A stretch of 40,050 bases of DNA, taken from Sulfurovum sp. 16-42-52 (lineage in GTDB: Bacteria > Campylobacterota > Campylobacteria > Campylobacterales > Sulfurovaceae). Location of the stretch: NCBI GenBank assembly GCA_002281755.1, contig NCHB01000013.1, positions 1-40,050 on the forward strand, given 5' to 3'. Shown one piece after another: positions 10,815 through 31,292 of this stretch (its first letter is position 1; every line of letters begins with the position of its first letter). The position numbers were made by a program, and so were the translations under genes. The notes under the pieces are model-generated. The model was not told the DNA's origin, made no database searches, and was given only the letters and a program-made list of their open reading frames with translations.

Positions 10815-11032
10815 GTCCTATGCGTGCAATCATACTACCTAGCATCCCCGGGTGAGCGTTCTGCCTAAAGTCGGCCCTAAAAAGCCAACGGTGCAGGAGA
10901 GAGTCTCTTTTTAGGGGATGAAGTCTCGCCGACAGAGTCAAGCTCAAACGACAACTTCCGCACACCAAGAGACTACAAGTCCCGCAAAGAATAATGTTGG
11001 ACCCCAAATACAGTAGTCGCATCACCTAGGTT
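10815..11032 (-). ncRNA. Structured RNA, probable 6S RNA (ssrS) upstream of purD
   Basis: This 218-nt non-coding stretch is GC-richer than its surroundings and starts 7 nt after a perfect TATAAT. Its two ends pair: CCTA (11030-11027) with TAGG (10820-10817), TGCG with CGCA, and ACTAC with GTAGT, forming an interrupted closing stem. Inside, AGTCTCTT pairs with AAGAGACT, GAAGT with ACTTC around a GAG/CTC hairpin, and alternatively CCCTAAAAAG with CTTTTTAGGG (10-bp hairpin). A long rod with interrupted stems, its own promoter and a position just ahead of a purine gene fit 6S RNA, which binds the sigma70 holoenzyme. I could not match a specific consensus, so another regulatory RNA is possible. 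tmRNA, RNase P and SRP RNA signatures are absent. Confidence 0.55.
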
Positions 11033-24164: not shown

Positions 24165-25942
24165 TACAAAATCTTCCCTCATCTGCGGGGGTATACCAAT
24201 ACTTTGATGCCAGAGGTAAATTGCTCTATGTGGGCAAAGCAAAAAACCTTAAAAACAGAGTCAAAAGCTATTGGCGTTTTACCCCTCTTTTTAAACCCAA
24301 TGAAGCGCAAAGTTCGCGCATCCTGAAGATGCTTCAGGAAGCTTCAAGACTGGAATACCTCCTTGTAGAGACTGAAGAAGATGCGCTTATCTTGGAAAAT
24401 GCGCTCATCAAACAGCTTAAACCCAAATACAACATTTTGCTTCGTGATGATAAAACCTACCCTTACATTTATATTGACGAAGCACAACCCTTTGCACGTT
24501 TTGAAATCACACGCAAAATTATTAAAGGTAAAAACATTACCTATTACGGGCCTTTCCCCTCAGGAGGCAGAGCACTGCTTGATGCATTGTATGAAGTTTA
24601 TCCCCTTATACAGAGAAAATCCTGTCTCAAAGAAGGCAAAGCCTGTTTATTTCACCAGATAGGTAAATGCCTTGCACCGTGCGAGGGGAAAATAACCCCA
24701 GAAGCGTATAAGGACATCATCTTTGAAGCCAAAACCTCTATCACCAAACGTAAAAAGCTTATCAAGACTTTAGAAGAGAAGATGACACAACTTGCCGTGC
24801 AGGAACGCTATGAAGAAGCCGCTTTGCTTAGAGACAAGATACAAAGCATTGCATCACTGACCATTACCTCAGGTATAGACTTGGCAAATGAACTGGATCT
24901 TGATATCTTTGCCATACGTAACGGGGATGAAAAAGGTGTGATAGTCAAGCTTTTTATGCGGGGTGGCAAGATTATCTCTTCCGCCTACACCTACTTTAGA
25001 CATACCCACATCTTTGATGAAAATGAAGCCTATAAACAGGCACTCTTAGAGTTTTACACCATAGACACGCCTCATATAAGCAAACAAATCTTGACAGCCC
25101 ATCCCTTTGAAGACAGCGAACAGGTCGCAAGAGGACTTAGCCTGCGTTATCATGAAAAAATAGAGATTCTTACACCCCAACGCGGTGCCAAAGCAAAACT
25201 GATTGCTTTGGCACTGCAAAACTGTGAAGAGTTGCTGCGAAAAACCCAAAGTGATACCATTATGGAGCAAAAGATTGCTGATCTTTTAGAGTTGAGCGTC
25301 ATCCCCTATCGTATCGAAACGTTTGATAACTCCCACATGATGGGCGTAGCTGCTGTGGGGGGAATGGTGGTTTGGGACGAAGGGGATTGGGACAAAAAGA
25401 GCTATAGACAGTATGCTTTATCTGAGCATGATGAGTATGCACAAATGAAAGAGATGCTTACCCGACGTATCAAACATTTCCAAGAAGAGCCTGCCCCTGA
25501 TCTCTGGATACTGGATGGCGGACAGGCAAATCTAAATCTTGCACTCGCTTTACTCAAAGATGCCCATGTAAACCTTGACGTGATCGCCATAGCCAAAGAA
25601 AAGTTAGATGCAAAAGCACATCGTGCAAAAGGTGCAGCCAAAGATATCCTCTATACACCTCAAGGCATACTTGAACTCAAAGCAAATGACGCACGGTTGC
25701 ACTGGATTCAACGCCAAAGAGACGAAGCCCATCGTTACGCCATTACCTATCATCAAAACAAAAAACGCAAAGAAGATACACAGATATCACTGCTCACTCA
25801 AAAAGGCATCGGAAAAGCAACACTCAAAAAACTCATTGATTATTTTGGCACATTTGAAGCCATAGAACTTGCATCATTTAAAGATATAGAAAAAGTTACA
25901 AATAATAAAATTGCAAACATTATTAAAAATAATACAGAGTAA
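24152..25942 (+). CDS. uvrC: Excinuclease ABC subunit C
   Basis: The nuclease of nucleotide excision repair; with UvrB it incises the damaged strand on both sides of a lesion. The 596-residue protein has an N-terminal GIY-YIG domain (GVYQYF, LLYVGKAKNLKNR; about residues 12-90). The UVR motif that binds UvrB follows (EEKMTQLAVQERYEEAALLRDKI, about 205-235), then the RNase H-like endonuclease (ETFDNSHMMGVAAVGGMVV, ILDGGQANL; about 390-480) and a C-terminal helix-hairpin-helix (GIGKATLKKLIDYFGT). It starts within the preceding gene. Confidence 0.96.
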   Translation: MQSVVQNLPSSAGVYQYFDARGKLLYVGKAKNLKNRVKSYWRFTPLFKPNEAQSSRILKMLQEASRLEYLLVETEEDALILENALIKQLKPKYNILLRDDKTYPYIYIDEAQPFARFEITRKIIKGKNITYYGPFPSGGRALLDALYEVYPLIQRKSCLKEGKACLFHQIGKCLAPCEGKITPEAYKDIIFEAKTSITKRKKLIKTLEEKMTQLAVQERYEEAALLRDKIQSIASLTITSGIDLANELDLDIFAIRNGDEKGVIVKLFMRGGKIISSAYTYFRHTHIFDENEAYKQALLEFYTIDTPHISKQILTAHPFEDSEQVARGLSLRYHEKIEILTPQRGAKAKLIALALQNCEELLRKTQSDTIMEQKIADLLELSVIPYRIETFDNSHMMGVAAVGGMVVWDEGDWDKKSYRQYALSEHDEYAQMKEMLTRRIKHFQEEPAPDLWILDGGQANLNLALALLKDAHVNLDVIAIAKEKLDAKAHRAKGAAKDILYTPQGILELKANDARLHWIQRQRDEAHRYAITYHQNKKRKEDTQISLLTQKGIGKATLKKLIDYFGTFEAIELASFKDIEKVTNNKIANIIKNNTE

Positions 25943-26071
25943 ATTGTCATTATTTGATATTTTTTACTGAAAACATAATTAATTCATTCTATTTTTAGTT
26001 AACTTGTACTAAAGTTTTAGAAGTGGGCTTATCATTACAGTATTTGGGTACTTTTAAGTACTGACAAATAC

Positions 26072-26077
26072 TATAAA
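26072..26077 (+). promoter_or_regulatory. -10 box of the riboswitch leader
   Basis: TATAAA lies about 12 nt before the first nucleotides of the riboswitch closing stem, so transcription would begin near 26084. GTACTT and AAGTAC flank TT just upstream (26049-26062), a possible operator. Nothing else is recognised in 25943-26070. Confidence 0.5.
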
Positions 26078-26084
26078 ACAGATA

Positions 26085-26171
26085 ACACTAGGTTAAAAAG
26101 CTAAACTCATTGTGAAGTGAGGGCAGAAAGCCATGGGTCTTTATAAGATTGCCAGGCTGCACACGGTAATC
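26085..26171 (+). promoter_or_regulatory. GEMM-I type cyclic di-GMP riboswitch aptamer
   Basis: The layout matches the GEMM-I (c-di-GMP-I) class. GCTAAA is followed by a hairpin with stem CTCATT/AGTGAG closed by a GUGA loop (a GNRA tetraloop, 26105-26120). The conserved core GGCAGAAAGCCATGGGTC follows (26121-26139), then a second helix (GCC...GGC, GG...CC, TC...GA; TTTATAA loop) ending GCCAGGCTGC. The closing stem GGTTA (26091-26095) with TAATC (26167-26171) completes it. The Vc2 riboswitch of Vibrio has the same order: GCAAACC, GAAA-loop hairpin, GCAAAGCC, second hairpin. The position 75 nt ahead of the PAS gene fits a leader. Ligand and direction are inferred; a cyclic GMP-AMP variant cannot be excluded. 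Confidence 0.8.
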
Positions 26172-26237
26172 TGTAGCTCAGAGTTACCCGAACCGCACTT
26201 CTTCTTTGACACACTTGACACAATATATAAGGGGTAA
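26165..26237 (+). promoter_or_regulatory. Riboswitch expression platform (alternative hairpin and hidden ribosome binding site)
   Basis: GGTAATCTG (26165-26173) pairs with CAGAGTTACC (26179-26188) into a 9-bp stem with one bulge and a 5-nt loop; its 5' arm shares nucleotides with the aptamer closing stem, so the two exclude each other. Its 3' arm TTACCC (26184-26189) is also complementary to GGGTAA at 26232-26237, the ribosome binding site (AAGGGG) of the PAS gene. No T-run follows the hairpin, so translational control is more likely than termination. Confidence 0.55.
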
Positions 26238-26246
26238 AAGAATACT

Positions 26247-26660
26247 ATGAATAGACCTAATCCAATTGATGAAGAGTATACTTTTGAGAAAGGTTTGATA
26301 GTTAGTTCTACAGATCTTAAAGGTATCATTACATACGCCAACAGAAAATTTTGCGAAATTGCCGGTTATGCCAAAGAAGAATTGGTGGGGAAAAACCATA
26401 ATATCGTCAGACACCCCGATATGCCAAAAGCAGCATTTCAAGAATTATGGGACACAGTAAAAGCTGGTAAAGAGTGGACGGGTATTGTAAAAAACCTACG
26501 AAAAGACGGCAGATACTATTGGGTTTATTCACATATTTCACCTATTGTGGTTAACGGAGACGTGACAGGTTATACCGCAGCAAGAAGACCTGCCTCTGCT
26601 ACAGAAATCGAAGAAACCATTCCGCTGTATCGTGATTTGCTAGAAAAAGAAAGAAATTAA
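26247..26660 (+). CDS. Aer/CetB-like PAS-domain sensor
   Basis: A 137-residue single PAS domain. The sequence SSTDLKGIITYANRKFCEIA, NHNIVRHPDMPKAAFQELWD and GIVKNLRKDGRYYWV matches the FAD-binding PAS of E. coli Aer and of Campylobacter CetB, which sense redox state for energy taxis; the end RPASATEIE-PLYRDLL also parallels Aer. Aer itself goes on to a methyl-accepting signalling part, absent here, so this is the CetB-like stand-alone form that needs a partner. I infer flavin binding from homology. The ribosome binding site AAGGGG is 12 nt upstream and lies in the riboswitch platform. First gene of the four-gene operon. Confidence 0.88.
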   Translation: MNRPNPIDEEYTFEKGLIVSSTDLKGIITYANRKFCEIAGYAKEELVGKNHNIVRHPDMPKAAFQELWDTVKAGKEWTGIVKNLRKDGRYYWVYSHISPIVVNGDVTGYTAARRPASATEIEETIPLYRDLLEKERN

Positions 26661-26679: not shown

Positions 26680-28047
26680 ATGTACTATATACTAAATGAA
26701 ACAAACCAAGTCATTGCTGCTGATTCAGAACTATTAACACTGTGCGGTCTAGCACACATTGATGAATTGACTCGAAGCATTGCCTTAGGTGAAACCACAT
26801 TCAACCTCACTTCCGAAAAAAAGCTTGTCATAACCCTAGATAACGATGATACGAGCTATGATGTATCTACTTCTGCGCTTTCAAGTATGTTGGGGCACCT
26901 AACTTTGGTCGCCCTCAATACTGAAGAACAAAACAGCGAAGAGATGGTATTGCACTTAGAAGATGAAGATACTTTTGTAGAAGCTCAGAAAGAGAGTACT
27001 GTTTTAGATTTGGATTCAGCACCTATTTCGTTTGAGAGTGAACCAGATGAAGATATGTTGTTTGAAAATCTTTTTGTTGCCAAAGAAGAAGCAGAAACCA
27101 TCGAAGAAACAGTTTCTTCTTTGGTTCTTGATGAAGAGGAAACATCTCCAATGGCGCTCTTCATCGAAGAAGAAGATGAATCTGATATCAAGCTCTTCGA
27201 TGTTACAGAATCAAAAGAAATAGAACTTGTCCCAATAGACAAAACTCAAACGGAAACTTTCGATGAAATCTACCTCGATGTAGATAAGCTCAGCCAACAA
27301 ATCGGTGTTTCCAAAGAAGACTACACTCTCTTTCTCAATGATTATATCGATACGGCGCTTGAGCTTGAAAATGACTTGCAAAATTCAGATGAATCCATAC
27401 GTTCAAATGCCATCTCAACACTGACACACCTGAGTGATGTGTTGCAGCTTGGCGAAATTTCAGACATTCTGGCACATATCAATGCTGCACCACAAGAAAC
27501 GCAAATACAAATTGTCACTTCATTTTATGATGCACTCTCAAAAATAACAACGTCCAAAGCAGATACAGTGCTTCAAGCCAATGAAGACCAACAGGCACCT
27601 GCCGAAGAACCCGCAATGGAACTCTTTGATAGTGTTGAAGAGATTGAAGAAAAGCCTGAATCCAAACCAATCAATACAAATGGCTTTGGAACTATCAGTC
27701 TGGAGGGTATAAAGCCTATTCACTTTGATTTCAGGCTTGAAGAGGCTGCCAATGATCTTTCTTTACCGGTAGACCTGATTGAAGAGTTTGTACATGATTT
27801 TATTGAACAAGCCCATGTTGAGACTCAAAATATGCTCAAAGCCTACGAAAAAGGTGATTTGGATGCGATTCAAAAAATTGGACATCTGCTTAAAGGTGCA
27901 TCAAGCAACCTGCGTATCAATGCACTCTCGGACACGCTATTTAGGATACAATTTTGTGATGACAGTAGCCTGCTTGAATCCTATATCAAAGACTACTGGG
28001 GACATTTTTTGTCTTTTGAAATCCAAATCAATGCGCTAGCAAAATAA
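26680..28047 (+). CDS. HPt phosphotransfer protein
   Basis: A 455-residue acidic protein. The C-terminal 100 residues are an HPt domain with the phospho-accepting motif GHLLKGASSNL (His402). A middle section (about residues 200-290, IYLDVDKLSQQIGVSKEDY, TLFLNDYIDTALEL, with TLTHLSDVLQLGEIS) has the helix pattern and a His of a second, degenerate HPt. The N-terminal 90 residues and a long Glu/Asp-rich linker (about 85-190) are not recognised. It would relay phosphate between the hybrid kinase and the response regulator encoded downstream. It follows the PAS gene by 19 nt. Confidence 0.82.
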   Translation: MYYILNETNQVIAADSELLTLCGLAHIDELTRSIALGETTFNLTSEKKLVITLDNDDTSYDVSTSALSSMLGHLTLVALNTEEQNSEEMVLHLEDEDTFVEAQKESTVLDLDSAPISFESEPDEDMLFENLFVAKEEAETIEETVSSLVLDEEETSPMALFIEEEDESDIKLFDVTESKEIELVPIDKTQTETFDEIYLDVDKLSQQIGVSKEDYTLFLNDYIDTALELENDLQNSDESIRSNAISTLTHLSDVLQLGEISDILAHINAAPQETQIQIVTSFYDALSKITTSKADTVLQANEDQQAPAEEPAMELFDSVEEIEEKPESKPINTNGFGTISLEGIKPIHFDFRLEEAANDLSLPVDLIEEFVHDFIEQAHVETQNMLKAYEKGDLDAIQKIGHLLKGASSNLRINALSDTLFRIQFCDDSSLLESYIKDYWGHFLSFEIQINALAK

Positions 28048-28055
28048 AGGAAAAT

Positions 28056-31000
28056 ATGATGACCATACGTAATAGACTTAAACTCATTGGACTGGTTCCG
28101 ATTACACTGCTCATTCTTCTATCAAGTTATTTCTTTATAACTTCATACCTGAATTTTGAAAAAGCAAATGCGCTCAAAACAACGCTTATAAACAATGCCG
28201 CTTTGGACAGAGCACTTATTAACATCGGTAAAGAGCAAGGTTTAACGGCTCTCTATCTCGGTAGCGATAAAAAAGAGTTTGCAGATTCACTTATCAAGCA
28301 ACGCGAGACGTCAGATGAAACCTTTGAAGACCTCAAGTACGAAGTGATTACCGAACAAAAGGCTTATCTTCCTTTTATCATCGAGTTAATGGGTGAACAA
28401 AATCTCGTACAAGATGATTCTTACGCAAGACTATTGGCAAATCTTAACACGCTTAATGAAACGCGTAAAAAGATAGACAGTGAAGATGTGGAGTTTAAAA
28501 GTATCTTTTTCAACACCTACACTGATGGTCTTACAGAACCTGTGTTAGATAAAATTCTCACGCTTAAACAATATTCGCTTGATACAGAGATTTCTTCATT
28601 GATTGCTACTCTCATTCAGCTTTACACAGCAAAAGAAAATGCATCTTTGGAAAGAGGGCTTATTGCCTACTTCATGGCAAAAAAAGGCTCTATGGCATTT
28701 GATGAGATAGCTTTGTGGGATGAGTTCAAAACCAAAGCGAACGGTTTTGATATTGACCAGGTTACCAACCCTGTATTACGCCAAGAACTCGAAAAAGTCC
28801 TCAATAGTGAGCAATCAAAACAAACCATGAGTGACCTTGCGATGACATCTTCTGCGATTCAGACAGATATTGATAACGGTGACTACGCAGAAGAAGTGAT
28901 AGACTGGTTTGCCCTTCAAACAAAAAAGATTACTTTACTGTCAAAAGCAGAACTGGTTGTCTCAGATGTTTTATGGAAAAAGAGTGATATCTATCTTCAG
29001 AAACAGATTTTGCTTCTAGCAATTGCAGCATCTATCTGGGTTTTGGCGTTTATTCTCTCTTATCTTGGATACACAACCACTAGAGATATTACACGAAACA
29101 TCAAAGAACTTGAAGACGTACTTAACAAAGCCGTCGATGAGATGAAAAACAGCGGTCAGTACCTATCTTCAGATTCACTTGCGATTGAAAACATCGAACT
29201 TGACACACACGAAGGAACAAAAGAAGCCTATAAATTCCTCGAAGCCCTTGTTGAAACCGCAAAAGACGATAAACTCATCGCGCTTCAAGCCAATGAAGCC
29301 AAATCGCTTTTTCTTGCGAACATGTCACATGAGATTCGTACTCCTCTAAACGGTATCGTTGGATTTACAGAGATTCTTCGCAGTACTAATCTGACTGAAG
29401 AGCAGGAAGAGTTCCTCTCCATCATCGATAAGAGTTCTGAGAACCTTCTTAGTATTATCAATAACATTCTTGACCTTTCAAAAATTGAAAGTAACAAAAT
29501 TGAAATTGAAAATATCGTATTTGACGCAGCAGAAGAATTTGACAGTGCCGTTGAAACCTATGGTGTTGCAGCAACTGAGAAAAATATTGACCTCAACTAC
29601 TATATGGATCCAGAAATTTCACCAAAACTTAAAGGTGATCCAACAAAGATTAAAGAAATTATCATCAACCTTCTTTCTAATGCCGTTAAATTTACTAGTT
29701 ATGGCGGAGAGATCAATCTTGAAATCCTAAAAGTCCAAAATGAATACGGTAGAAATGCTGTAAAGTTCACGGTCAAAGACAACGGTATCGGTATGACCAA
29801 AGATCAACAATCACGTATTTTTGATGCATTTTCACAAGCGGATGTCTCCGTTACAAGAAAATATGGTGGTACAGGCCTTGGGCTCACCATTTCCAGCCAA
29901 TTTGTTGAACTGATGGGCGGTAAACTTGAACTTGAAAGTGCGAAAGATCAGGGTACCTCATTCTTCTTTACTCTGGCTCTTGAAGAAGTAAGTTCCAATG
30001 AAATCAACTACAACGGTGCCTTTACCGAACTGACTATAGGTAAATACGAACAAGATATTCCTACCAAACTAGACAGCTACATAGGAAAATATTTTGAATA
30101 TTTCGGTCCGACAGTCAAACATTTTGAATCCATAGCCGATCTTAAAGAACTTGACAACAACAATGTGTGTAAAAACTTTTGGGTAGATATTGATAAAGCA
30201 AGACAGAATATTATTGATGCCATCCACCATATGGATAAATCAAAACTGATTGTCATAGCCAATGTTACAAGCCGAAATAAACTTGAAGACTTAGGACTTG
30301 AGCAAAAAAATATCATCTTTAAACCTGTAACACTTTCCAAACTCAAAACAGTACTTAATAACACTGCCAATGTCACTCCTGAATTGATGGAAGAGGCTAA
30401 AGCGACTCAAGAAACCAAATTTGATGCGAAGATACTTGTCACAGAAGACAACATCATCAACCAAAAACTTATCAAACGTATACTTGAAGAACATGGTGTA
30501 ACCGTAGACATTGCGAACAATGGTTTGGAATCATTTGAGAAACGAAGAAATGGGAATTATGATTTGATTTTCATGGATATCCAAATGCCTGTTATGGATG
30601 GTATTGAGGCAACACATGAGATACTTGACTTCGAAGAGGATGAGGGACATGCTCACATTCCTATCGTGGCACTCACAGCCAATGCACTTAAAGGCGACAG
30701 AGAGAGATTTTTATCTGAAGGGATGGATGAATACATCACTAAGCCGATTGAGACAACCGAACTGCTTTACATCTTGAACAAATTTTTATCTGGCAAAGCA
30801 AGCCATTCCGAAAAAGAGCCTAAAAAGAAAGTAGAGCCTATCGCTGTATTAGAAAAAGAGAAACCTGTCATGGAGACAGAGAACATCATCCCGGAAATCG
30901 ATATCTCAGATGAGCCAATAACATTGCATACAGAAGAACCAGTTGTAGATCTTATCGAAACAGATGCAGAGAAAAAGATACTGATTGCTAAAAAATTCTT

Positions 31001-31292
31001 ACTCTCTCGCAGAATCTTGGCAAAAGTTTTGGACAATATGGGTTATGCCTATGAGACTCTGGACACACTTGATAATCTTGAAGACAAATTAGCATCTGGT
31101 GCGTATGATATACTCTTCTGCGATACAGAGCTTGTCACATCAGACATCAGTGATTCTAATGAAAATATCGCTATAATCTGCACGAACAACACGCCTAATC
31201 CTCAAGAGATTACTGTCAAAAAAGGTGAAATCATCTCCGGTACAGTTTCTAAAGAAGAGATAGAAAAGTTAATAAGAAAGTATAGAGGATAA
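28056..31292 (+). CDS. NIT-domain hybrid sensor histidine kinase
   Basis: A 1078-residue membrane kinase. After an N-terminal helix (about 12-32) a periplasmic NIT-type domain follows (about 40-300; INIGKEQGLTALYLGS, ENASLERGLIAYFMA), the module associated with nitrate/nitrite sensing. A second helix lies at about 316-337. Then come HisKA (SHEIRTPLNGIVGF, phospho-His425) and HATPase (INLLSNAVKFT, DNGIGM about 574, GGTGLGL). A degenerate receiver-like stretch (about 665-775) precedes a genuine receiver (TEDNIINQKLI, FMDIQMPVMDG with Asp841). A second degenerate receiver lies at the end (about 970-1078, LIAKKFLLSRR, ILFCDTELV). The ligand is not proven. It follows the HPt gene by 8 nt, with AAAGGAA ahead of the ATG. 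Confidence 0.87.
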   Translation: MMTIRNRLKLIGLVPITLLILLSSYFFITSYLNFEKANALKTTLINNAALDRALINIGKEQGLTALYLGSDKKEFADSLIKQRETSDETFEDLKYEVITEQKAYLPFIIELMGEQNLVQDDSYARLLANLNTLNETRKKIDSEDVEFKSIFFNTYTDGLTEPVLDKILTLKQYSLDTEISSLIATLIQLYTAKENASLERGLIAYFMAKKGSMAFDEIALWDEFKTKANGFDIDQVTNPVLRQELEKVLNSEQSKQTMSDLAMTSSAIQTDIDNGDYAEEVIDWFALQTKKITLLSKAELVVSDVLWKKSDIYLQKQILLLAIAASIWVLAFILSYLGYTTTRDITRNIKELEDVLNKAVDEMKNSGQYLSSDSLAIENIELDTHEGTKEAYKFLEALVETAKDDKLIALQANEAKSLFLANMSHEIRTPLNGIVGFTEILRSTNLTEEQEEFLSIIDKSSENLLSIINNILDLSKIESNKIEIENIVFDAAEEFDSAVETYGVAATEKNIDLNYYMDPEISPKLKGDPTKIKEIIINLLSNAVKFTSYGGEINLEILKVQNEYGRNAVKFTVKDNGIGMTKDQQSRIFDAFSQADVSVTRKYGGTGLGLTISSQFVELMGGKLELESAKDQGTSFFFTLALEEVSSNEINYNGAFTELTIGKYEQDIPTKLDSYIGKYFEYFGPTVKHFESIADLKELDNNNVCKNFWVDIDKARQNIIDAIHHMDKSKLIVIANVTSRNKLEDLGLEQKNIIFKPVTLSKLKTVLNNTANVTPELMEEAKATQETKFDAKILVTEDNIINQKLIKRILEEHGVTVDIANNGLESFEKRRNGNYDLIFMDIQMPVMDGIEATHEILDFEEDEGHAHIPIVALTANALKGDRERFLSEGMDEYITKPIETTELLYILNKFLSGKASHSEKEPKKKVEPIAVLEKEKPVMETENIIPEIDISDEPITLHTEEPVVDLIETDAEKKILIAKKFLLSRRILAKVLDNMGYAYETLDTLDNLEDKLASGAYDILFCDTELVTSDISDSNENIAIICTNNTPNPQEITVKKGEIISGTVSKEEIEKLIRKYRG

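Follow-up and report, generated by a model that had tools for sequence, protein, structure and literature searches.

The leader of a PAS-domain gene in Sulfurovum sp. 16-42-52 carries a predicted class I cyclic-di-GMP (c-di-GMP) riboswitch. In the reading we favour, to which we give a probability of about 0.45, its aptamer, a hairpin that follows and a conserved strand complementary to the 3′ strand of P2 together form an OFF switch, the strand masking the Shine–Dalgarno (SD) region once it is released. As the aptamer class is already known the surprise is small, and the gain lies in correcting the pairing that had been drawn to hide the ribosome binding site. We analysed a 40,050-nucleotide stretch of this genome (the window) and aligned a comparison set of 23 Sulfurovum leaders, each carrying an aptamer of this type ahead of this same PAS gene. 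Covariation, pair counts and RNAalifold consensus folds come from 14 aligned leaders and ensemble energies from 22 leaders; the control set comprised 10 PAS1 orthologues whose leaders lack an intact riboswitch.

A class I riboswitch leader and its operon

The window leader holds a genuine riboswitch of the known c-di-GMP-I class, its aptamer assigned with high confidence and predicted to bind c-di-GMP. Its aptamer scores above the Rfam cut-off, bearing out the riboswitch leader proposed in the initial annotation, whose letters and coordinates were all correct. An operon encoding PAS, Hpt and NIT-hybrid-kinase proteins is predicted to be under the control of this class I c-di-GMP riboswitch:

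26081–26086, plus strand: putative −10 box GATAAC, proposed from aligned leaders, which show NATAAYNCTARRTT there
26090–26164, plus strand: c-di-GMP-I riboswitch aptamer, near the c-di-GMP-I-GGC variant (RF01051, 53.7 bits, cut-off 35)
26106–26121, plus strand: aptamer P2 hairpin, CUCAUU/AGUGAG with a GUGA (GNRA) loop (Rfam alignment, pairs checked)
26247–26660, plus strand: Aer-like PAS-only protein of 137 aa (Pfam PAS_3, 2.5e-19)
26680–28047, plus strand: 455-aa protein with a C-terminal Hpt domain, same operon (Pfam Hpt, 2.3e-05)
28056–31292, plus strand: NIT-sensor hybrid histidine kinase/response regulator, same operon (Pfam NIT, HisKA, HATPase_c and Response_reg)

A GNRA tetraloop caps P2, with the sequence GUGA in the window and GCGA in L043, L045, L048 and L053. 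The 3′ end of the aptamer at 26164 directly abuts the sequences named in the initial annotation and lies 82 nt from the PAS start codon, and the order of elements is identical across the 23 leaders. If the putative −10 box is right, the transcript would begin at about 26090, the 5′ edge of the aptamer; the box is missing from the list returned by a simple promoter scan. The sigma-70 −10 box of C. jejuni, gnTAnaAT, lies 4–8 nt 5′ of the transcription start site (PMC3847290).

The source genome is of Sulfurovum type, and the records of its relatives carry the name Sulfurovum. The nearest solved relative of the window PAS protein is the PAS domain of the E. coli aerotaxis receptor (8dik, E 8.7e-36), and the Hpt-protein gene also stands 3′ of the PAS gene in relatives. 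Seven GGDEF domains above the cut-off and four c-di-GMP-I riboswitches are present in the genome. A domain search of the genome found no MCP signalling domain and a search for flagellin returned none, so taxis is an unlikely output of the operon. Two further riboswitches of the same genome (L001 and L002) precede small predicted membrane proteins of unknown function. Elsewhere in the window, the Rfam 'purD' motif is matched at 10846–10976 on the minus strand (78 bits). The match probably marks this bacterium's 6S RNA, because the RNA 5′ of purD in C. jejuni folds like 6S RNA and is reported as a 6S RNA homologue (PMC3847290).

The hairpin and the TTACCC pairing among relatives

The initial annotation had drawn a three-way pairing choice: the strand just 3′ of the aptamer pairs either with the aptamer's 5′ arm, as a closing stem, or within a hairpin whose opening frees TTACCC to cover the ribosome binding site. 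That the pairings are mutually exclusive holds; the partners are probably wrong, and the contest is probably between the 5′ strand of P2 itself and positions 26193–26201 rather than between P1 and the hairpin. The elements at issue are:

26165–26188, plus strand: hairpin GGTAATCTG-TAGCT-CAGAGTTACC, nine pairs with one bulge (pair counts, shuffles)
26184–26189, plus strand: TTACCC, the strand earlier assigned to cover the ribosome binding site, fully complementary to 26232–26237 in the window and L035 only
26229–26237, plus strand: SD region AAGGGGTAA, 12 nt from its last G to the start codon (from sequence)

The hairpin is real, a conclusion we hold with fairly high confidence. Its arms, GGTAATCTG (26165–26173) and CAGAGTTACC (26179–26188, G26183 bulged), recur in place just 3′ of the aptamer, where the initial annotation had put them, with changes on both sides at three pairs. 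Across the 14 leaders 87% of cells are paired, compared with 27–60% when one arm is slid. The margin over letter shuffles is modest, the covariation score being reached by 17 of 500 and the share of paired cells by 57 of 500. For folding relative to shuffles the window is a borderline case (z −1.6, p 0.06), and L037, L038, L042, L043, L048, L099 and L106 are strong ones (z −2.2 to −3.9); one aligned leader, L044, lacks the hairpin. In the window energy model it can coexist with the folded aptamer. Fitting either state and absent from one leader, the hairpin probably serves as a spacer, which would bring the switching strand and its partner together.

The proposed closing stem fared poorly. GGTTA occupies 26091–26095, and AGGTTA can form six pairs with TAATCT, one of them G–U; over 14 leaders the GGTTA/TAATC stem has 56% of its cells paired, worse than most shuffles, and no leader, the window included (p 0.27), gives it a significant duplex energy. 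On these pair counts and energies we rejected AGGUUA/UAAUCU as P1. A three-pair GUU/AAC or AUU/AAU stem occurs in many leaders, as seen by eye only.

TTACCC and GGGTAA (26232–26237) do form six Watson–Crick pairs, and this complementarity is real; its conservation is not, the pairing being intact only in the window and the near-identical L035. Covariation between the two arms, the test by which the initial annotation proposed to judge the model, is absent from the 14 leaders, in which an equal score is reached by 286 of 500 shuffles; the A–U pair is disrupted in 9 of them. Tested against shuffles, pairing of TTACCC with the SD reaches p 0.066 in the window and finds no support in relatives (combined p 0.76). 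In L037–L042 the SD reads GGGGGGAG, GGGGGGAA or GGGGAAAA and lacks the matching UAA, so the partner of TTACCC is gone there. With neither covariation nor an excess over shuffles in relatives, the pairing was rejected as a family-wide feature.

The same switch could still be specific to one lineage, ligand stabilizing AGGUUA/UAAUCU and opening the hairpin so that UUACCC pairs with GGGUAA and turns expression OFF. The six Watson–Crick pairs, the shuffle test in the window, the identical UUACCC/GGGUAA in L035 and the shorter versions kept in L058 and L099 speak for this; the missing covariation, the unsupported P1 and the loss of UAA from the SD of L037–L042 speak against it. Energies weigh further on that side: in the window the aptamer with P1 and TTACCC:GGGTAA reaches −32.6, compared with −41.9 for aptamer plus hairpin, placing the OFF fold about 9 kcal/mol higher and outside the ensemble. 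Given that gap and a hairpin that coexists with the aptamer, ligand would not obviously free TTACCC, and we consider the lineage-specific version very improbable. The OFF direction itself is possible, acting through the strand at 26192–26203 instead of TTACCC.

A conserved strand and its complement in P2

We think that positions 26192–26203 act as the switching strand, judging from leader comparison and folding models:

26192–26203, plus strand: conserved candidate switching strand ACCGCACUUCUU, family consensus ACYRCACUUCUU (leader comparison)
26114–26122, plus strand: 3′ strand of P2, GAAGUGAGG, complementary to 26193–26201 (RNAalifold consensus helix of 14 leaders)

The core of this pyrimidine-rich strand, ACYRCACUUCUU, is present in 19 of the 23 leaders with a riboswitch, and all 10 control orthologues lack it (Fisher p 1e-5, a statistic that ignores the kinship of the leaders). 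Its absence from those orthologues argues that the strand belongs to the riboswitch and not to the gene. L053, L103, L113 and L116 either lack the core or carry an altered form of it; L044 has no hairpin yet retains the strand. One of the 10 controls, L063, has an apparent decayed aptamer immediately 5′ of its PAS gene, in which the GCTAAAC..P2..ACAGAAA part is kept and P3, the hairpin and the CACUUCUU strand are missing.

In the window, GAAGUGAGG (26114–26122) and CCGCACUUC (26193–26201) form eight Watson–Crick pairs around one A–G mismatch, a helix that we call anti-P2. The RNAalifold consensus of 14 leaders likewise contains GAAGUG-A-GG paired with CY-R-CACUUC in place of P2. Most of its pairs form in every one of the 14 rows, L041 and L094 carry substitutions that retain G–U pairs, and one pair is U–U in L043 and L048; RNAalifold detected no two-sided compensatory change in anti-P2 within the 14 leaders of the PAS1 set. 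The two window ensembles are nearly equal, at −42.5 with the aptamer enforced and −43.1 with anti-P2 enforced (a gap of 0.6 kcal/mol), and they lie less than 2 kcal/mol apart in 13 of 22 leaders, which is what a switch tipped by ligand needs. On these alignments and energy models, we regard the odds that anti-P2 pairing is real in these leaders as about even. In the proposed mechanism, CCGCACUUC (26193–26201) would pair with GAAGUGAGG (26114–26122) when c-di-GMP is missing, undoing P2 and the binding site, and c-di-GMP would stabilize P2 and release the strand.

Over the PAS1 set, duplexes between the aptamer segment and the post-aptamer region beat shuffles (combined p 5.9e-8, from leaders that are related and not independent). 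A control with the aptamer segment reversed is also low (combined p 4.7e-5), and purine/pyrimidine composition therefore explains part of the anti-P2 signal. This enrichment and the lack of two-sided covariation would fit a different account, in which the conserved strand is a protein or ribosome contact and its complementarity to P2 arises because the GNRA loop and 3′ strand are rich in purines. We hold that account unlikely: the strand is found only together with the aptamer, and P2 and strand match better in cognate than in non-cognate combinations (p 0.03 for PAS1, p 0.017 for GCU-type aptamers). The cognate advantage was not seen for GCC-type aptamers in this test, and anti-P2 was rejected as a rule holding throughout the c-di-GMP-I leaders of Sulfurovum.

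Independent variants add support for anti-P2: different sequences pair with the same aptamer segment in L053 (−18.4 kcal/mol, p 0.002) and in the paralogous PAS riboswitch L130, which has an 11-pair run and a second short run (−20.6 kcal/mol, p 0.004). A second family of PAS genes, with an N-terminus like MGKTIKNIITGKEITKPDP, also follows c-di-GMP-I riboswitches (L124, L125, L130–L135, L137, L140 and L141). In L124, L130 and L137 about 9 to 11 contiguous pairs form against the aptamer segment GAAGUGAGGACAGAAAG.

Proposed output of the switch and known systems

Translational control had been judged more likely than an intrinsic terminator, and the absence of any terminator-like site in 25940–26300 agrees with this. 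Transcriptional control would cast the hairpin and the following CACUUCUUCUU as a weak terminator or pause site. Several other leaders of the genus do carry a U-rich tract 3′ of a hairpin, and the PAS1 strand occupies the corresponding place. The window leader, however, has no terminator-like site, about 7 nt without U separate its hairpin from the tract, and L044 keeps the strand even though its hairpin is gone; we consider this output unlikely here. In L021, L078, L086, L112 and L118 a hairpin and then a U-rich tract lie 3′ of the aptamer, which suggests transcription termination as the output of those leaders.

Translational OFF control is the most likely output on our models, a view we hold tentatively. 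The released strand would pair with the SD region, which is G-rich in nearly all aligned leaders, and lower translation. For the SD-pairing step and the OFF direction our inference leans chiefly on L053 and L116, two diverged leaders whose post-aptamer regions also hold a strand with strong SD pairing. From aptamer fold to anti-P2, modelled SD exposure rises from 0.00 to 0.45 in L053 and from 0.01 to 0.32 in L116; it scarcely differs in the window (0.27 with the aptamer, 0.31 with anti-P2), and the difference is small in other leaders too. Across the family, pairing of the strand with the SD does not exceed shuffled chance (combined p 0.78). CUUCUU with AAGGGG was accordingly rejected as a family-wide anti-SD, being no better than composition-matched chance, and is strong in L053 and L116. 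The conserved strand resembles the 16S anti-Shine–Dalgarno tail, and it is conceivable, if short of probable, that one conserved strand both competes for the 3′ strand of P2, not P1, and mimics that tail, and that it has been reused before Sulfurovum PAS genes.

TTACCC/GGGTAA is thus confined to one leader type, and the aptamer-linked 12-nt strand is the better switch candidate. Sulfurovum-type genomes carry from none to 21 c-di-GMP-I riboswitches each; with up to 21 per genome and two PAS-gene families, Sulfurovum suits comparison of the different outputs of one aptamer. Some of these riboswitches are close neighbours on a single contig, as in L019, L028 and L032. L159, a contig that bears the label uncultured Methylomonas, has two matches to the Sulfurovum-type aptamer pattern and is perhaps mis-binned.

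Among known systems, Cd1 of C. difficile is a class I OFF switch upstream of flgB that acts via transcription termination (PMC6366702). The window leader has in common with Cd1 a class I aptamer, a proposed OFF output and a genome with several c-di-GMP riboswitches (PMC6366702); Cd1 terminates transcription, whereas no terminator was found in the window leader. With the c-di-GMP-I (GEMM-I, RF01051) family the window shares the aptamer fold, the P2 GNRA loop, P3 and a score above the gathering cut-off. It differs in that P1 is weak or unsupported and the proposed switching helix targets the 3′ strand of P2, not P1. The c-di-GMP-I-GGC variant (RF03167) is the best model when scanned alone, and the window falls just below its cut-off (56.5 bits against 59), outside formal membership; the orthologues L038 and L039 exceed it, at 59.3 bits. 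CetB of Campylobacter jejuni is the PAS-only partner of an energy-taxis receptor, and by description the window protein is similarly PAS-only and Aer-like. Unlike CetB, it belongs to a genome without an MCP signalling domain or flagellin, and its operon partner is a hybrid kinase.
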